NCBI RefSeq assembly: GCF_027359595.1
Contig: NZ_CP114783.1
Location: 124,001-188,000 of the forward strand
Origin: Prochlorococcus marinus str. MIT 0912
Lineage (GTDB): Bacteria; Cyanobacteriota; Cyanobacteriia; PCC-6307; Cyanobiaceae
DNA: 64,000 bases
Direction of reading: 5' to 3'
Shown here: one piece after another, positions 35,872 to 43,665 of the stretch
Position numbering within the stretch: the first letter of the stretch is position 1
How the letters are laid out: each line of letters opens with the position of its first letter
Made by a program: the position numbers and the translations under genes
Notes under the pieces: model-generated
What the model was told of the DNA's origin: nothing
Databases searched by the model: none
What the model saw: only the letters and a program-made list of their open reading frames with translations

Positions 35872-38384
35872 GCAACACTGATTCAAAATCTACTCCTTAT
35901 AGCCAACGAAGTGAACTAATAGCTTGGATTCGATCTTTACAACAAGCTTTAACAGTTGAGGTCGATCACGGGTTTACTGATATTAAAGGGAGAACAAACA
36001 AATTTTCTTATTTTGTAAGTGGATATTTATTACGCGGTCCTTCCACACTTTTTCAAGAGTCTGATTTTTCTAAATTAAAGGATTTGGCTATCCGTTATGA
36101 GGAATATTCAACTATGTCTACAGACGATAGACGTAGACTAATAGTTCAGACGAGGCAGACTCTTCATGATCTATACAAATATGACGAAGGTGTAGAGAAA
36201 ACAGAGTCAAAAAAATTAAAGATAAGAAGAGCACATGATTCTATTATTTATCAAAGAAGTTCTTTGACAAATATATTAAGTTTAGGAAGCTCTATTTCCG
36301 CTATTAAAGGGGTGGGCCCAAAACAAGCAGAGAGATTGTCTGTATTGGGTCTTATATTAATTCGTGATCTCATAAATTATTTCCCACGTGATTATGTTGA
36401 TTACACTTCATTGAAAACAATAGATAAAACTCAAGCAGGTCAGAATGTGACAATCGTCGCAAAAGTGAGACGATGCAGTTCTTTTAAAAGCCCTAAAAAC
36501 CCAAATCTTTCAATTCTGGAGTTATTTATAAAAGATAGAACAGGAGGAATGAAAGTTACTAAATTTTTTGCAGGTCGTCGTCGTAGCAGTATTGCCTATG
36601 TAAAATCTCAACAAAGTTTGTATGCTGTTGGTGCAACTGTTGCTGTAAGCGGGTTAGTTAAGGAAAGTAAATATGGAAAATCATTAAATGATCCATTAAT
36701 AGAAATTATTGATAGTCCCAATAGTTTTTTAAAGTCTAGAACTATTGGTCAAATTTTCCCGGTTTATTCTTTAACCGAAGGTATTACTGCGGATAAATTC
36801 AGAGATCTAATACAATCGATTCTCCATTTGACGTCTGAGATAAATGATCCACTCCCTCAAGGCACCTTAAAAAGACTAGATCTACCTACTAAGAAGGAAG
36901 CTTTTTTTCATATTCATAATCCTGAGGATTCAAAAACTTTGGCTAGAGCAAAAAGAAGAATTGTATTCGATGAATTCTTACTATTGCAACTTAGTCTTCT
37001 TTTAAGACGCGATTTACATAAGAAAAGTGATTCCCCTAAATTAAGTATCGAGCCAAGTATTGATAGCCTAGTTGGAAAATTCTTAAGCACTCTTCCTTTC
37101 TCTCTAACAGATGCTCAAAAAAGAGTTTTAAAGGAAATTAAATCAGACATAGTCAAAGCTGAACCAATGTCTAGATTATTACAAGGTGATGTTGGTAGCG
37201 GAAAAACTGTTATTGCTATTTCAGCACTCCTCACTGCAGTTCAATCAGGATGGCAGGGTGCTTTTATGGCCCCAACTGAGGTCCTTGCTACACAACATTA
37301 TCAAACACTCAGTAAATGGATTCCACAGATTGAGTTGAATGTAGATCTGTTAACTGGTTCTACACCCAAGTCTCGTCGTAAACAAATTCTAACTGATTTA
37401 GCAAATGGCTCTACAAAAATTCTTGTGGGAACTCATGCATTATTTGAAGATCCAGTTGTCTTTGAGCGACTTGGACTTGTAGTTGTAGATGAGCAACATC
37501 GTTTTGGGGTTAAGCAGAGGAACAAGCTTTTGAACAAAGGATTACAACCCCACTTGCTAACGATGACTGCTACACCCATACCTAGAACCTTGGCGCTTAC
37601 TTTGCATGGTGATCTAGATGTTAGTCAATTAGATGAGCTTCCACCTGGCCGAACTCCTATCAATACTCAGCTGATATCACCAAAAGAAAAAACTTATGCA
37701 TATGATTTAATCAGAAGTGAAATTAATAAAGGACATCAAATTTATGTTGTTCTACCTTTAATTGAAGAATCCGAGAAACTTGAACTTAGTGCAGCTATTG
37801 ACGTACATCATCATTTGTCTACTGAAATTTTTTCAGATTTTACTGTTGAATTACTTCATGGCAAAATGAAGAGCGTAGAAAAACAAGAAGTTATTAAGAA
37901 TTTTCTCAATAAAAAAAGCGATATACTTGTCTCTACCACAGTTATAGAAGTTGGTGTAGATGTTCCAAATGCCAGTGTGATGCTAATAGAGGATTCTGAT
38001 CGTTTTGGTCTTGCTCAATTGCATCAATTAAGGGGACGAGTGGGAAGGGGAGCCTCCAAGTCTTACTGTCTCCTAAGTCATCAGAATAAAAATAAATTAT
38101 CTCGACAAAGATTGGAAGTCTTGGTGAATTCTAATGATGGTTTTGAAATTTCTGAAATTGATTTGCGTTTTCGTGGACCTGGACAAGTTTTAGGTACAAA
38201 ACAATCAGGCTTACCTGATTTTGCTCTGGCATCACTAGCTGATGATGCTGACCTACTTGAACTTGCAAGGAATGAGGCTCGAAATATTTTAGATTCCGAT
38301 CCTATGCTTACAAATAACTCAAAGCTTCGTTTGCTCATAAAAGAACAGTGGGAGAAATTTAAAATTGGTAATAAATTAAATTAA
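35844..38384 (+). CDS. recG: ATP-dependent DNA helicase RecG
   Basis: An 846-aa branch-migration helicase that remodels stalled replication forks. A cyanobacterial-type N-terminal extension (about residues 1-150) is followed by the wedge OB domain (about 155-270), then helicase lobes with Walker A QGDVGSGKT (about 450-458), DEQH, TATPIPRTLAL, and the motif VI region LAQLHQLRGRVGRG. The C-terminal TRG-type segment is present. The ATG at 35844 overlaps the upstream gene, so coupling is likely. Confidence 0.97.
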   Translation: MVEGYNKNISNTDSKSTPYSQRSELIAWIRSLQQALTVEVDHGFTDIKGRTNKFSYFVSGYLLRGPSTLFQESDFSKLKDLAIRYEEYSTMSTDDRRRLIVQTRQTLHDLYKYDEGVEKTESKKLKIRRAHDSIIYQRSSLTNILSLGSSISAIKGVGPKQAERLSVLGLILIRDLINYFPRDYVDYTSLKTIDKTQAGQNVTIVAKVRRCSSFKSPKNPNLSILELFIKDRTGGMKVTKFFAGRRRSSIAYVKSQQSLYAVGATVAVSGLVKESKYGKSLNDPLIEIIDSPNSFLKSRTIGQIFPVYSLTEGITADKFRDLIQSILHLTSEINDPLPQGTLKRLDLPTKKEAFFHIHNPEDSKTLARAKRRIVFDEFLLLQLSLLLRRDLHKKSDSPKLSIEPSIDSLVGKFLSTLPFSLTDAQKRVLKEIKSDIVKAEPMSRLLQGDVGSGKTVIAISALLTAVQSGWQGAFMAPTEVLATQHYQTLSKWIPQIELNVDLLTGSTPKSRRKQILTDLANGSTKILVGTHALFEDPVVFERLGLVVVDEQHRFGVKQRNKLLNKGLQPHLLTMTATPIPRTLALTLHGDLDVSQLDELPPGRTPINTQLISPKEKTYAYDLIRSEINKGHQIYVVLPLIEESEKLELSAAIDVHHHLSTEIFSDFTVELLHGKMKSVEKQEVIKNFLNKKSDILVSTTVIEVGVDVPNASVMLIEDSDRFGLAQLHQLRGRVGRGASKSYCLLSHQNKNKLSRQRLEVLVNSNDGFEISEIDLRFRGPGQVLGTKQSGLPDFALASLADDADLLELARNEARNILDSDPMLTNNSKLRLLIKEQWEKFKIGNKLN

Positions 38385-38485
38385 TTTTTTATTATTTATC
38401 ACTATTGAACTCATTTATTTTTACGGTTAAAATTTAATAAATATTTTTTACGTTTGAAATTTTATACTCATTTTTTCTATAAATC

Positions 38486-39241
38486 ATGAAGTTGAGACCT
38501 TGGAACAATATAAAAATAAATGAATGTAATGAGCCTTTGATTTCAATTCCAGAAACCATATTTCGATTAAAACCACATCCTTATATGTCGTTAGGTGCTC
38601 CATATTCTAATGGAGCAGATCCATGGGTTTTACGCAGGAGTGTTTTGAAAAGATTAATTCAAGCGCAGCAATATCTTTCCGAGATTAATCCTCAATTACA
38701 GTTGGCTTTGTTTGATGCCTGGAGACCAATAGCTGTCCAAAAATTCATGTTTAATCACACTATCAAGGAAAATTGTAGATTGAAGGGGATTGAGATAAAT
38801 GATCCCTCTGCTAATAGAGACATTACTGATGTAATTGAAGAGGTTGGTCGTTTCTGGGCAAAACCATCATCTAATCCTCTTACGCCTCCTCCTCACAGCA
38901 CAGGTTCAGCTATTGATTTGACTCTTGCCGATATGAGTGGTAATCCATTAGATCTTGGCGGAGAAATTGATTTTATTGGCGCTGAATCAACTCCTGATTT
39001 TTATAAGAAAGACTATTCCATGACGCCTAGCTCAAAATATCAAGTTTTTCAAAAAAGAAGATCCCTTTTATATTCAGCAATGTCACAGGCTGGATTTGTT
39101 CAACACCCAAACGAATGGTGGCATTTTAGCTATGGAGATCAATTATGGTCTTGGTTAAGTAAGAAAGGTAATCCTATTTATGGAGCAGCACTTGAGGTAA
39201 GTAAGGACATTACACTTTTAGATCCAAGTTTAGTTACATGA
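38486..39241 (+). CDS. D-Ala-D-Ala dipeptidase (M15D, VanX/DdpX type)
   Basis: A 251-aa zinc peptidase. ALFDAWRP (substrate Arg), the SxHxxGxAxD motif HSTGSAIDLTL (about residues 137-147), and EWWHFSYG (about 213-220) give the metal and catalytic Glu. It cleaves D-alanyl-D-alanine, probably for peptidoglycan recycling; no van-type regulators are near. Its last 64 bases overlap the convergent sir gene in antisense, a long tail overlap for this genome. Confidence 0.88.
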   Translation: MKLRPWNNIKINECNEPLISIPETIFRLKPHPYMSLGAPYSNGADPWVLRRSVLKRLIQAQQYLSEINPQLQLALFDAWRPIAVQKFMFNHTIKENCRLKGIEINDPSANRDITDVIEEVGRFWAKPSSNPLTPPPHSTGSAIDLTLADMSGNPLDLGGEIDFIGAESTPDFYKKDYSMTPSSKYQVFQKRRSLLYSAMSQAGFVQHPNEWWHFSYGDQLWSWLSKKGNPIYGAALEVSKDITLLDPSLVT

Positions 39242-41322
39242 TCTCCAAGGCTTGATGAACCCCCAGTATTTTTCCAGCTAAGAAATAATGGTTCTAATGT
39301 TTTCTCTAATTCATTAATAGACATCTTTTGTAAATATGGCGTTGCCAACCTTTGTAAATCAGTGCTACCACCAAGCCATAGTTGGTATTGATTTAAACCA
39401 CTACCAACAAGAGCTAATTCTGCCATATATGGGCGGGCACATCCATTGGGACAACCTGTAACTCTTATTAAGATTGATTTATTTATCTCTAGGATTTTTA
39501 ATTGATTGTTAATCCGTTCTAAAAGCTCTGGTAAGAATCTCTCTGCTTCTGTCATGGCAAGTCCACATAAAGGAAGAGCTGGACATGCCATGGCATGTCT
39601 GGCCAATGGATCAGGACTTCCTGGTTCATTAAAACCTATTTTAATTAGTGCATTCTTTACACTGGCTTTTTGATAATTTCCGATGTTGCACAATAAAAGA
39701 TCTTGGTTAGGAGTTAAGCGTACATCCAAGGCATATTTTTCAACTATATTTCTAAGTCCTTTCTTTACCTTCCCTGTAAGCCTGCCTGATAATACTGGTA
39801 GCCCAACAAACCATAATTTGTCAGATTGTCGATGCCAGCCTAAATAATCTTCAAGTATTGTATCCCCTTCGTGCTTAAGAGTGTCAATTCGTTTTGTAAA
39901 ATATTTAGTTGTTAACTGCTTCTTAAACCAATCCACACCCATGTCATGCAAAACATATTTAAGTCTTGAGTGTCTTCTCGTTTTTCTATCTCCATAATCT
40001 CTTTGAAGAGCGAGAATAGATTGAACAAGCTCTAATATGTATTTACCTTCTACAAAACCAATGGGATCTGCGACCCTCGCGAATGTCGTATCTAAGTTGT
40101 GTGTTCTACCCATACCTCCTCCTACGTAGACATTACATCCTTCTAGAACTCCTTTTGCATTCGTGAAAGTCACTAGACCTATGTCATGAGTAAGGATATC
40201 TACAGAGTTATCTCCTGGTACTGTAGTTGCGCATTTGAATTTTCTTGGCAAGTAGGTTGCACCATACAAAGGTTCGTTTTTGTCCCCACTAAATACACCA
40301 TGATTTCGTTGCAGCTTTCTGCTTTTTTTTACTTCAGGCGATGGCTTAATAGCATATTTCATCTCGCCATCAACCCATAAATCAATGTATGTTTTCTCTG
40401 CTTTTTGGGGTGATAAAACATCGGCAATATCATTAGCTAATTTTCTCGCAGCGGGATAAGATCCTTTTTCGTAAGGGGCCGCTGGAGCCATTACATTTCT
40501 ATTGACGTCTCCACAAGCCGCTAGGGTAGATCCCATCGACTTGACGATTGTTCCTATTACTTCTTTAATATTGTCTTTTTTTATGCCATGCATTTGGAAA
40601 CATTGACGTGTGGTCGCTCTAAGCGTTTTATTGCCTAGTCGATCAGATAGATCATCTAATGCTATAAAAAGGGGGCCTGGGACTAAACCAGCTGGATTTC
40701 TTAGCCTCAGCATCATTTGCCAATCTTTACCTGTGCCACCTCTTTTTCTATGTTCCCGATCATCTTGTTGATAACTACCATGAAATTTTAGTAGTTGTAC
40801 TGCATCGTTTGTAAAGTGATCGCTGTCGTTTATCAATTCACTTTGAAGAGGCTGACTTAAGTAATTACTATCGGCTTTAAATTGTTCAAATTTCGCTCGA
40901 GGGGAATTGTTAGCGATGCAAGGTGAAGGAACAGTCTCTTCTTTTTCTAAGGAATTTTTACTTTCATTTTCTTCAAAATTCATCAAAGCTTCAATAGCTG
41001 CATTACTGAATCCAGCATCTTTTAAATCTTTTTCTATATTTTTAGGAGCTTCTATTGAATTACTTTTTTTAATCGCCTCGAGTCTTATTCCTTTAGGTAA
41101 TGATTCATTGATCTGGTCTGCTTCTTCTTCTCTGAGCTTTTCATCGAATTTTTGTTGAATAGCTATTTCTGCTGAGCTTATATTCTTTTCGGCTTCTTCT
41201 TTTGTGTTACCTATTTTTTTTACAACATCACATGTTCCAAAAGCATCCCTTAATTTACCTCTTGGTACAGCAACCCTGAGGTAAAAACCAGATCTTCCAG
41301 GTATTTCTATGATCTTGGGCAA
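39178..41322 (-). CDS. sir: Ferredoxin-sulfite reductase with N-terminal integrase-like extension
   Basis: A 714-aa protein that reduces sulfite to sulfide using ferredoxin, siroheme and a 4Fe-4S cluster. The enzyme proper begins at about residue 145 (PRAKFEQFKADSNYL), with TRQCFQMHG, CGDVNRNVMAP, and cluster cysteines 580, 586, 624 and 628 (CX5C...CX3C). Residues 1-60 (IPGRSGFYLRVAVPRGKLRD...KKIGNTKEEAE) are not SiR sequence; they resemble the DUF6538/arm-binding domain at the N-terminus of tyrosine recombinases, though no catalytic recombinase residues remain. The first codon is TTG (41322); Met114 is an alternative native start. The end overlaps the convergent VanX gene by 64 bases. Confidence 0.95.
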   Translation of the reverse strand: MPKIIEIPGRSGFYLRVAVPRGKLRDAFGTCDVVKKIGNTKEEAEKNISSAEIAIQQKFDEKLREEEADQINESLPKGIRLEAIKKSNSIEAPKNIEKDLKDAGFSNAAIEALMNFEENESKNSLEKEETVPSPCIANNSPRAKFEQFKADSNYLSQPLQSELINDSDHFTNDAVQLLKFHGSYQQDDREHRKRGGTGKDWQMMLRLRNPAGLVPGPLFIALDDLSDRLGNKTLRATTRQCFQMHGIKKDNIKEVIGTIVKSMGSTLAACGDVNRNVMAPAAPYEKGSYPAARKLANDIADVLSPQKAEKTYIDLWVDGEMKYAIKPSPEVKKSRKLQRNHGVFSGDKNEPLYGATYLPRKFKCATTVPGDNSVDILTHDIGLVTFTNAKGVLEGCNVYVGGGMGRTHNLDTTFARVADPIGFVEGKYILELVQSILALQRDYGDRKTRRHSRLKYVLHDMGVDWFKKQLTTKYFTKRIDTLKHEGDTILEDYLGWHRQSDKLWFVGLPVLSGRLTGKVKKGLRNIVEKYALDVRLTPNQDLLLCNIGNYQKASVKNALIKIGFNEPGSPDPLARHAMACPALPLCGLAMTEAERFLPELLERINNQLKILEINKSILIRVTGCPNGCARPYMAELALVGSGLNQYQLWLGGSTDLQRLATPYLQKMSINELEKTLEPLFLSWKNTGGSSSLGDHVTKLGSKSVMSLLTSSAAP

Positions 41323-41323
41323 T

Positions 41324-41347
41324 GGTACCTACACTGGTACCTACACT
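41324..41347. repeat. 12-bp tandem direct repeat upstream of sir
   Basis: GGTACCTACACT occurs twice head to tail immediately upstream of the sir TTG start. It lies in the 180-base divergent promoter region shared with glyS. Read toward sir it is AGTGTAGGTACC twice. Its position directly at the fused recombinase-like N-terminus is suggestive, because tandem arm sites are a feature of recombinase genes, but no function is proven. Confidence 0.7.
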
Positions 41348-41502
41348 GTATCATTTTTCTTGTTAGTTGGTGCTTAATTGTTCAAATCAAGCCATGAGTA
41401 ATAAAAGATGCGTTCCTTTCATTTTAAATTTTTTCTAGGACACAGAATGTAGAAGTAATTCTATTTTAGATCTAATCTTGTATAGAACATAAGGAAATTT
41501 TT

Positions 41503-43665
41503 TTGTCTACTTACCTTTTAGAAATCGGCACTGAGGAATTACCAGCTGATTTGGCTGAATCTGTTATTTCCCAACTTGAGTTAAACGTAAATAATGACTT
41601 GAATTCTTCTCACATAAAATTTAGTGAAATTAAAGTTTCTACTACCCCAAGAAGAATTGCCTTAAAGATTGAAGGAATTGCTCCATTTTCTGAAGACAAT
41701 ATCTCAGAAAGAAAAGGCCCTCCTGTCGATCAAGCTTTTCATGATGGAAAACCTACAAAAGCAGCAATTGGTTTTGCTAAAAGATTCAATCTTTCTCCTG
41801 AAAAATTAGAGATCCGTGAAACGGTAAAGGGCTCATTCGTTTTCGCTAAATCAGTTGAGAAAGGCAGGCCCGTTGAGAGTTTATTGGCTGATCATTTACC
41901 TGGATGGATCAACAAAATTCAAGGAAGAAGGTTTATGAGATGGGGCAAAGGTGATTTTCGCTTTTCGAGACCTATACGATGGATTGTTTCTTTGATTGAT
42001 TCAGAAATTTTACCTTTTAGAATTTCAGGGTGCGATCCAGAAATTCAAATTAGCAATCTCTCAAGACCTCATAGGTTGCATGGATCAAAATTAGAAATAA
42101 AGAATGCAAAAACTTATTTTGATCAATTGCAGGATGTCGGAGTAACAGTTGATAGGAATAGTCGCCTTTCATGCATAAACGATTTAGTTCTTAATCATGA
42201 AAAAAATAAAAAAGTTAAGCCAGATCTGACTGAACCACTTTTAAATGAGCTGACAGATTTAGTTGAGTCTCCTTTACTCGTAACTGGGAATTTTGATGAA
42301 GCATTCCTCGATTTACCCCCAGAGGTTTTGTCCACTGTGATGAAGGTCCATCAAAGGTACATACCTTTATATAAAGATAACGTTGATTTTGATCCTTTAT
42401 CACTTGATTCTCGAAATATTCTACTTCCTAGTTTTTTGTGTATTAGTAATGGATTATCTTCAGCAAAGGAAAATATTATTTTAGGAAATGAAAAAGTATT
42501 AAAAGCAAGGTTCTCTGATGCTAAATTTTTTATAAAGTCAGATTTATTAATCACTAGCGCTTCACGTATTAATAAATTAAAAGATGTAACCTTTGCTGAA
42601 GGATTAGGTTCTCTATATGACCGTGTAAATCGGATTGAATGGCTTACTAAATTATTAACATCAAAACTTAAATTTGACCAAGCGGATATTGAAAAATCTT
42701 TGAAAGTTGCACATTTTTCAAAACATGACTTGGTCAGCAATATGGTTGACGAATTTCCAGAGTTGCAAGGAATTGTTGGATCAAAATACTTACTTCATGA
42801 GGGTGAAGAAAAAGATGTATGCCTAGGAGTTTTGGAACATTACAAGCCCAAAGGCTCTGCAGATTCTCTTCCCTCAAACAACTTTGGTAATGCAGTATCA
42901 TTAGCTGAACGTTTTGAATTGCTTTTCAGTATTTTTGCAAAGGGAGAAAGACCCTCTGGTTCATCTGATCCATATGCTTTGAGAAGGGCTGCTAATGGAA
43001 TACTTCTAATTTTATGGAAAAAAGATTGGAAATTAAATATCAATGAAATACTAAATTATTCTTTAACTTATTGGCAGCAAATTTTCCCTTCTCTTCCTTT
43101 TGATATAAGCAGTCTTTCGAGCGAGTTGATGGAGTTTTTCCGTCAAAGAATTATTAGTTTATTAGAAGAAAAAGGTATAGATTTTGATATTATTAATGCA
43201 ATTGCGGGAAATACAACCTCAACATCAAAACTATTAGATGATCCAACAGATGTTGATTTTCGCTCTTCATTATTAATGGATATGAGGAAAAATAATACAC
43301 TTGATTTGTTGCAAGCTGTAGTAACTCGAGCCTCAAAGTTGGCAGCTAAAAGTTCTATATCAAACGATATTATAGATCCTTCCACTTTTGTTGATAAGTC
43401 ACTATTTGAAAAGGGTTGTGAAAGTGAAATGTTTAATGTTTTGGAGAAATTAAAGCCTCTAGCTATAAATGGTGATCGTGTTAAATATAAGTTGTTGGCT
43501 GATGGCTTAGTCTCAAGTGCAGAAACTTTAGCCAACTTTTTTGATGGAGAAGGAAGTGTAATGGTTATGACGGATGATATTAATTTAAGAAATAACAGGC
43601 TTAATCTATTGACAGTCCTCAGAAATCAGTCTTTAAAGCTCGCTGATTTCAGCAAACTTACTTAA
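41503..43665 (+). CDS. glyS: Glycyl-tRNA synthetase beta subunit
   Basis: A 720-aa beta chain of the heterotetrameric alpha2beta2 enzyme. The start is YLLEIGTEELPADL after TTG (preceded by AAGGAAA at good spacing), then RRIALKIEG, ERKGPPVDQAF, the RFMRWGKGDFRFSRPIRW segment, and an HD-like region GLGSLYDRVNRI and HFSKHDLVSNMVDEFPELQG. It ends with a DALR-like anticodon domain. The alpha subunit gene is not in the window. It converges with chlP with a 21-base gap. Confidence 0.96.
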   Translation: MSTYLLEIGTEELPADLAESVISQLELNVNNDLNSSHIKFSEIKVSTTPRRIALKIEGIAPFSEDNISERKGPPVDQAFHDGKPTKAAIGFAKRFNLSPEKLEIRETVKGSFVFAKSVEKGRPVESLLADHLPGWINKIQGRRFMRWGKGDFRFSRPIRWIVSLIDSEILPFRISGCDPEIQISNLSRPHRLHGSKLEIKNAKTYFDQLQDVGVTVDRNSRLSCINDLVLNHEKNKKVKPDLTEPLLNELTDLVESPLLVTGNFDEAFLDLPPEVLSTVMKVHQRYIPLYKDNVDFDPLSLDSRNILLPSFLCISNGLSSAKENIILGNEKVLKARFSDAKFFIKSDLLITSASRINKLKDVTFAEGLGSLYDRVNRIEWLTKLLTSKLKFDQADIEKSLKVAHFSKHDLVSNMVDEFPELQGIVGSKYLLHEGEEKDVCLGVLEHYKPKGSADSLPSNNFGNAVSLAERFELLFSIFAKGERPSGSSDPYALRRAANGILLILWKKDWKLNINEILNYSLTYWQQIFPSLPFDISSLSSELMEFFRQRIISLLEEKGIDFDIINAIAGNTTSTSKLLDDPTDVDFRSSLLMDMRKNNTLDLLQAVVTRASKLAAKSSISNDIIDPSTFVDKSLFEKGCESEMFNVLEKLKPLAINGDRVKYKLLADGLVSSAETLANFFDGEGSVMVMTDDINLRNNRLNLLTVLRNQSLKLADFSKLT

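Follow-up and report, generated by a model that had tools for sequence, protein, structure and literature searches.

A Prochlorococcus sulfite reductase with a recombinase-derived N-terminus and a conserved tandem repeat before its gene: a putative self-regulating enzyme

The sir gene for sulfite reductase (SiR) in the window, the whole stretch of 64,000 nucleotides from Prochlorococcus marinus str. MIT 0912 that was analysed, encodes a long N-terminal extension and directly follows a short tandem repeat, and the question is where the extension came from and what it does together with the repeat. An earlier note on this DNA, made from the sequence alone, had proposed that the frame begins about 130–145 residues before the usual SiR start, at a TTG codon, that the first part looks like the arm-binding domain of a tyrosine recombinase, and that nothing of the recombinase catalytic domain is left. 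The features of the locus are collected in Table 1. The proposed frame and its start codon were both confirmed: the TTG lies about 134 codons ahead of the usual start, and the SiR models start matching at residue 135–146, so that the N-terminal extension comprises about 134–145 residues. The codons immediately 5′ of the TTG are GTG TAG GTA CCA, and because of the in-frame TAG three codons upstream, the frame can start at the earliest two codons before the TTG. The protein scored 732.1 bits against TIGR02042 (NCBIfam cut-off, 731.5), which meets the criterion for a ferredoxin-dependent sulfite reductase, and 741.5 bits against NF010029 (NCBIfam cut-off, 457). The likeness to the TIGR02042 family covers the catalytic part, residues 139–706, but the SiR of the window has about 118 additional N-terminal residues. 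As had been supposed, no Pfam match to the core-binding and catalytic domains of tyrosine recombinases was obtained in the 714-residue frame. The divergent arrangement of sir and glyS is kept in 10 outgroup loci without the extension and at the locus of the sister-genus genome G101, and since the neighbour is the same in all of these, the gain at sir amounts to only a few hundred base pairs. On the other side of sir, a 27-bp tandem repeat (38418–38476; 2.2 copies, 81% match) was seen between a frame at 38486–39241 and another that ends at 38384 and by eye resembles recG.

Table 1. Positions of the features at the sir locus (window coordinates) and of the two Rieske fusions (genome:contig:position)
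Feature	Position	Strand	Basis and remarks
sir, ferredoxin-type sulfite reductase with integrase-derived N-terminus	39178..41322	-	714 aa, TTG start; NCBIfam match
Residues 1–62, integrase arm-binding-type domain	41137..41322	-	Homology; predicted strand-strand-short helix-strand-long helix; dN/dS 0.062 (2–62)
Residues 63–118, end of long helix, linker and small constrained helical motif (96–118)	40969..41136	-	dN/dS, AF2
Residues 119–134, loosely constrained junction	40921..40968	-	dN/dS 0.34 for 119–140
Operator-like unit 2 (start-proximal), TGTAGGTACC	41324..41333	-	Repeat and conservation
Operator-like unit 1 (start-distal), TGTAGGTACC, 12 bp from unit 2	41336..41345	-	Repeat and conservation
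AATGATACAG, nearly invariant block adjoining the repeats	41346..41355	-	Conservation
glyS, divergent neighbour of sir	41503..43665	+	Identity by eye
Rieske fusion, L059/L159	G388:C2:51310-52632		Arm and Rieske/Ring_hydroxyl_A domains
Rieske fusion, L065	G407:C2:2196-2402 region		Arm and Rieske/Ring_hydroxyl_A domains

Residues 2–64 of the SiR are homologous to the DUF6538-like N-terminal arm of complete tyrosine recombinases of the same family. When an alignment of the SiR extensions was compared with an alignment of integrase arms by hhalign, the match reached 99.1% with E 1.9e-18 and 40% identity over 62 columns, and the resemblance to a recombinase arm that the earlier note had seen is thus one of homology to the N-termini of complete recombinases. 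A chance or low-complexity resemblance was considered and ruled out by the hhalign score and the agreement with many integrases. Within the same genus, a search with the 142-residue extension matched a 424-aa frame of genome G002 (E 1.4e-7), and the G002 protein (L050:4981–6249) is a recombinase, with Phage_integrase and Phage_int_SAM_5 above the Pfam cut-offs and DUF6538 below threshold. Besides SiRs, the other matches were the N-termini of recombinase frames from this family, about 420–450 aa long and with E values as low as 6e-11. The assignment of the arm to the DUF6538 type could be sustained only in part. Fourteen of 16 aligned arm relatives matched DUF6538 (PF20172) at E <=1, the best at 7.6e-7, and the DUF6538 domains of tyrosine recombinases are homologous to the SiR arm; the extension of the window SiR itself, however, is missed by the family model, with no match at E <=10, and does not meet the 27-bit cut-off for membership. 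The sister-genus SiR gave E 0.11 (12.7 bits) and the integrase of G158 gave 21.8 bits. On this homology, the N-terminus of SiR is a recombinase-derived piece, in support of the in-frame capture of an integrase fragment that had been suggested.

The extension was found in 30 of 41 genomes of the own genus and in G101 of the sister genus when 400 genomes of the family were searched, and all 30 own-genus genomes that hold the 5′ end of sir have it. Among the 11 own-genus genomes without the extension, four had no SiR match, six had only partial-query matches of 27–30%, and G036 had only a C-terminal SiR fragment. SiR was detected at E <=1e-100 in 278 of 300 family genomes. Among the matches listed, the complete SiRs of the own genus and G101 have frames of 716–750 aa and most others about 585–630 aa; some other SiRs in the same set of matches lie in longer stop-to-stop frames, none of which matches the extension at SiR. 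The outcome that would have refuted the proposal, an extension on all picocyanobacterial SiRs without similarity to recombinases, is therefore not the case. The extended SiRs form a single clade both in the tree of the SiR core (17 rows; 98/94) and in the tree of the arm (35 rows, few columns; 98/92). Twenty-one matches to the extension lie on named contigs, all of Prochlorococcus, and the AG numbers of these contigs presumably denote single-cell genomes. Misassembly or a strain-specific fusion was also ruled out, by the presence of the extension in 30 own-genus genomes and one of the sister genus. This distribution, together with the trees, shows that the in-frame fusion of the 5′ part of a tyrosine recombinase gene to sir dates to the common ancestor of the own and the sister genus. 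No donor was found in phages by tblastn, nor in viral contigs scanned for the arm, and two viral contigs with the tandem motif had no arm-domain frame in the stretches examined. With profile searches, arm matches turned up in 5 of 31 genomes from the genus of G158 and in 5 of 34 from that of G315, all at loci already known.

The selective constraint on the extension was estimated as dN/dS across 29 genomes. The values were 0.062 for residues 2–62, 0.152 for 63–95, 0.088 for 96–118 and 0.34 for 119–140, as compared with 0.076 for the SiR core. The arm is under constraint as strong as that on the enzyme core, which speaks for translation beginning at the TTG and for a functional role. Translation from Met114, which the earlier note had named as a possible refutation, was rejected, because the constraint on codons 1–113 would then go unexplained. 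The motif at residues 96–118 is perhaps also derived from the integrase: residues 66–132 searched alone against integrase linkers gave no significant match (best E 0.12, against 0.28 for a reversed control), and a roughly colinear match of the DLKDAGF region with L061 gives no more than a suggestion of linker homology. The junction at residues 119–134 is inferred to be, probably, the ancestral N-terminal tail of SiR; the outgroup SiR frames (n = 10) mostly have just a short tail ahead of PCIA(N). AlphaFold2 predicted the arm (69 residues) with a mean pLDDT of 88.1, in the order of elements given in Table 1, and the 141-residue extension with a mean pLDDT of 75.7. In structure searches the P4-like integrase arm domain (3rmp) appeared at Z 3.0 and 2.8, weakly and amid ribosomal and dsRBD rows; the match at Z 2.8, of 3rmp_C with the predicted arm in VIA-align, had an rmsd of 3.3 over 48 aligned residues. 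No match below E 0.001 was obtained with the predicted arm in Foldseek, a PDB sequence search with the arm alignment gave a single match at E 1.1, and the bare extension gave no meaningful match in Pfam, PHROGs or NCBIfam.

The 12-bp tandem repeat that had been reported directly upstream of sir is indeed present at 41323–41348 of the window, with a period of 12, 2.2 copies and 100% match, and abuts the TTG. Its consensus, TGTWGGTACC-NN-TGTWGGTACC, is nearly invariant. In 29 genomes the leader has the layout AATGATACAG-TGTAGGTACC-NN-TGTAGGTACC-A, followed 0–2 bases on by TTG or GTG. Pairwise identity among these leaders is 97.5% in the 33-bp operator block and 72.9% in the adjacent 60 bp upstream. 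The most variable columns of the block are the two spacer columns between the units (26 and 23 of 29); four further columns have one exception each and the remainder are fixed, with GGTACC intact in both units of all 29 leaders. With <=2 mismatches allowed, 30 of the 41 own-genus genomes have a single copy of the tandem site, which always adjoins the sir start; the 11 genomes without the extension have none, and a reversed-pattern control gave 0 in 41. In the own genome, where alone single units were counted, the 11-bp unit has two exact matches, both at sir. Seven sites with the tandem motif were found outside the own genus and G101, including those in G140, G345 and G211:C23; the one at G211:C14 is an integrase operator. 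A further three of the seven were inspected, and none of these precedes an arm gene. The AATGATACAG block is a possible −10 region, but this is an inference, and a consensus promoter scan at sir returned no sigma-70 site (0, against 1.1 expected). As a separate observation, several of the outgroup sir leaders L186–L191 and L195 share a block like TAGCTACG..TAGGAAAAATGACGCCGTGA, and in some of these a possible GTG start of SiR is overlapped by a short ATG ACG CCG TGA, which gives the appearance of a micro-ORF with coupling to sir.

Tandem repeats also precede many of the integrase genes that encode the arm. The arm-domain frames were clustered into 35 non-redundant clusters, L062, L106 and L123 having been dropped beforehand (the repeat of L062 is perfect). 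A tandem repeat of >=9/10 within 50 bp upstream was found in 16 of the 35 clusters, where its period was always 12 or 13, and in 6 of 104 control ORFs, and a perfect repeat in 9/35 and 0/104, respectively. After removal of the SiR and Rieske clusters (see below) the counts were 14/32 for >=9/10 (Fisher, 1.7e-6) and 7/32 for perfect repeats (Fisher, 2.3e-5); with only the recognised integrases retained, they were 12/25 and 6/25. The remaining 19 of the 35 clusters, including the Rieske member L065, scored under 9/10. The G002 integrase has GGTAGGACC twice upstream and the G211 integrase GTGGGTACC three times. The integrase arm nearest to that of SiR in the compared set is from G158 (45%), and the G158 repeat contains TGTAGGTAC; the G211 arm is just 32% alike, yet its repeat is as close to that of SiR as the G158 repeat is. 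Arm identity and operator similarity were correlated in a Mantel test (rho 0.28, p 0.011). The same was true, however, of a control stretch farther from the gene on the upstream side (rho 0.35), and the result is therefore no evidence for coevolution of arm and operator. A stretch like CCGTGCCGTGCGAGCCCCAGTGATCGACCTGA, seen by eye about 60–110 bp upstream of the integrase start in L050, L053, L056, L057, L063 and L068, is perhaps an attachment core. No Rfam match was found in 6 integrase loci, and no tRNA in 13 loci scanned, mostly over about 2 kb on each side; loci with this stretch were among those scanned. A family of tyrosine recombinases with unusual domain structure has been described in Prochlorococcus and Synechococcus (PMC10187409). 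These are tyrosine recombinases of marine picocyanobacteria like those analysed here, although shared family identity is not established, and the described ones typically lie near tRNA-Phe or tRNA-Cys, in contrast to the 13 loci without a tRNA. From the same architecture of tandem repeats, a set of picocyanobacterial integrases is likewise predicted to have arm sites and to regulate themselves.

From the conserved repeat at sir and the repeats of their own that many arm genes have, SiR seems to have captured an integrase arm together with an operator. By homology only, SiR meets the criterion of a DNA-binding-type domain fused to a catalytic domain. The earlier note had considered a new domain for DNA binding or targeting; the origin from a DNA binder stands on that homology, but since the repeat resembles a captured operator or arm-type site, self-regulation becomes a likelier function than a general role in binding or targeting DNA. 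We think it probable that SiR is an enzyme-repressor that binds its own tandem site and so limits its own expression, with parts taken from an autoregulated integrase, although DNA binding and repression are both inferred and there are no binding or expression data. The sequences show a tyrosine-recombinase arm fused in frame to sir, with an integrase-type 12-bp tandem repeat directly before the start codon, and strong constraint on arm and repeat ever since. According to the proposal, the arm would bind the two direct repeats at the sir start; when free SiR is plentiful the site would be occupied, and when SiR is scarce sir would be derepressed. Whether substrate, siroheme or Fe-S loading might tune the binding of the arm is speculation. 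SiR is a monomer, which weighs against the model, as it gives no account of how two arms cooperate. The source of the parts would most likely be an integrase already regulating itself through the same arm and site. Such self-repression is on record: prophage integrases can act as repressors of their own gene through arm-type sites that overlap its promoter, and in IntS of KplE1 one arm-type site overlaps the −10 region (PMC2951348). Many of the picocyanobacterial integrases analysed here seem to be laid out similarly, with tandem repeats a short way upstream of the start codon. IntS is a recombinase, whereas SiR lacks the core-binding and catalytic domains.

The same conservation could also reflect control at the RNA level, with the GGTACC palindromes pairing as a leader hairpin before the start codon and controlling translation, and with the arm kept for some other reason. 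A same-genus sir leader folds at z −2.0 and the G101 leader at z −3.4, and this reading is also helped by the palindromes being unchanged in every leader. We nevertheless hold it to be unlikely, because the folding is not general (of five other arm-gene leaders, one had z −2.2 and four lay between −0.2 and +1.2), and because the loop TGT is conserved like the stem while the 2-nt spacer is the most variable part, which fits two protein sites better than a hairpin. The arm might instead be a relic or structural tail without DNA binding that aids SiR folding, ferredoxin docking or oligomerisation, the repeat being kept as promoter sequence. The absence of binding data would allow this, as would a SiR arm diverged enough to miss the Pfam model, but arm and tandem site are conserved jointly, and in its period and, roughly, its position the site matches those upstream of the integrase and Rieske genes that encode this domain. 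The merely tolerated tail that the earlier note had left possible is thus disfavoured by purifying selection on arm and repeat, and we regard this explanation as quite improbable.

Plastid SiR is a nucleoid protein, and this counts in favour of a general targeting of SiR to DNA or the nucleoid. The tandem site, however, is present once per genome, at sir, which speaks for self-regulation rather than genome-wide binding and makes nucleoid targeting very doubtful. A role against mobile elements, in which the SiR arm would compete for the arm sites of integrases and block integration, could draw on the complete arm-type integrase in one same-genus genome (G002, L050), but the GGTAGGACC repeat of that integrase is unlike the SiR repeat, and no second SiR-type tandem site exists in own-genus genomes; of all the explanations we find this the hardest to credit.

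Self-regulation by a DNA-binding enzyme has a precedent, and the preferred reading of SiR as an enzyme-repressor departs from it in the parts used. Trifunctional PutA is described as an enzyme with an N-terminal DNA-binding domain that acts as an autogenous repressor (PMC5293562). It shares with SiR the combination of a metabolic enzyme and an N-terminal DNA-binding domain, repression of the own gene being only proposed for SiR. The DNA binder of PutA is a ribbon-helix-helix domain, whereas the presumed binder of SiR is an integrase arm with an integrase-like tandem site. Bifunctional enzyme-repressors are thus already known, but for an integrase arm and operator on a sulfite reductase or Rieske enzyme, which would be new parts and a new route, no description was found: literature searches limited to titles and the beginnings of abstracts gave none of the arm-SiR fusion among the papers listed, and a search for DUF6538 found no mention. 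If the model is true, a mobile-element integrase would have supplied both the DNA-binding domain and the operator in one step, an unusual way for a self-regulating enzyme to arise, and it would be explained how streamlined ocean bacteria keep a core sulfur enzyme under feedback control. The bare annotation 'sulfite reductase' hides both the conserved, putatively regulatory site and the 118-residue extension.

A second kind of enzyme also has the arm: a Rieske/Ring_hydroxyl_A oxygenase, to which it is fused in G388 and G407, two genomes from another genus of this family (Table 1). The Rieske gene of G388 has GGTTCTACC twice upstream; that of G407 (L065) has a weaker repeat (8/10, p 0.30). In the arm tree the SiR and Rieske arms stand apart, and of 200 bootstrap trees just 4% joined them, although their separation is not enforced by any branch with strong support. 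A profile search of 266 genomes of the genus of the Rieske fusions (g41) gave 13 arm carriers. Seven new ones among them, for which only the first 130 residues were considered, look like integrases; G369 (broken frame) and G261 and G361 (short frames) were incomplete. Aside from the two Rieske genes, no fusion of the arm to a protein other than an integrase was recognised in these 266 genomes, and in a search of 121 g41 genomes with the Rieske protein, full-length similarity was seen, among the matches listed, just in G388 itself, G407 not being one of those matches. We raise, tentatively, the possibility that arm and tandem operator form a portable self-regulation cassette. It would have been captured at least twice within this cyanobacterial family by unrelated iron-sulfur enzymes, a sulfite reductase and a Rieske oxygenase. 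Each enzyme would thereby repress the gene that encodes it, with the state of the enzyme or of its Fe-S/siroheme cofactor perhaps acting as a gate, and streamlined genomes would gain a feedback that needs no separate regulator. The neighbours of the Rieske gene at L159 include, by eye, a FabH-type ketoacyl synthase and a Wzz-type chain-length protein, and the locus is possibly a surface-polysaccharide island.
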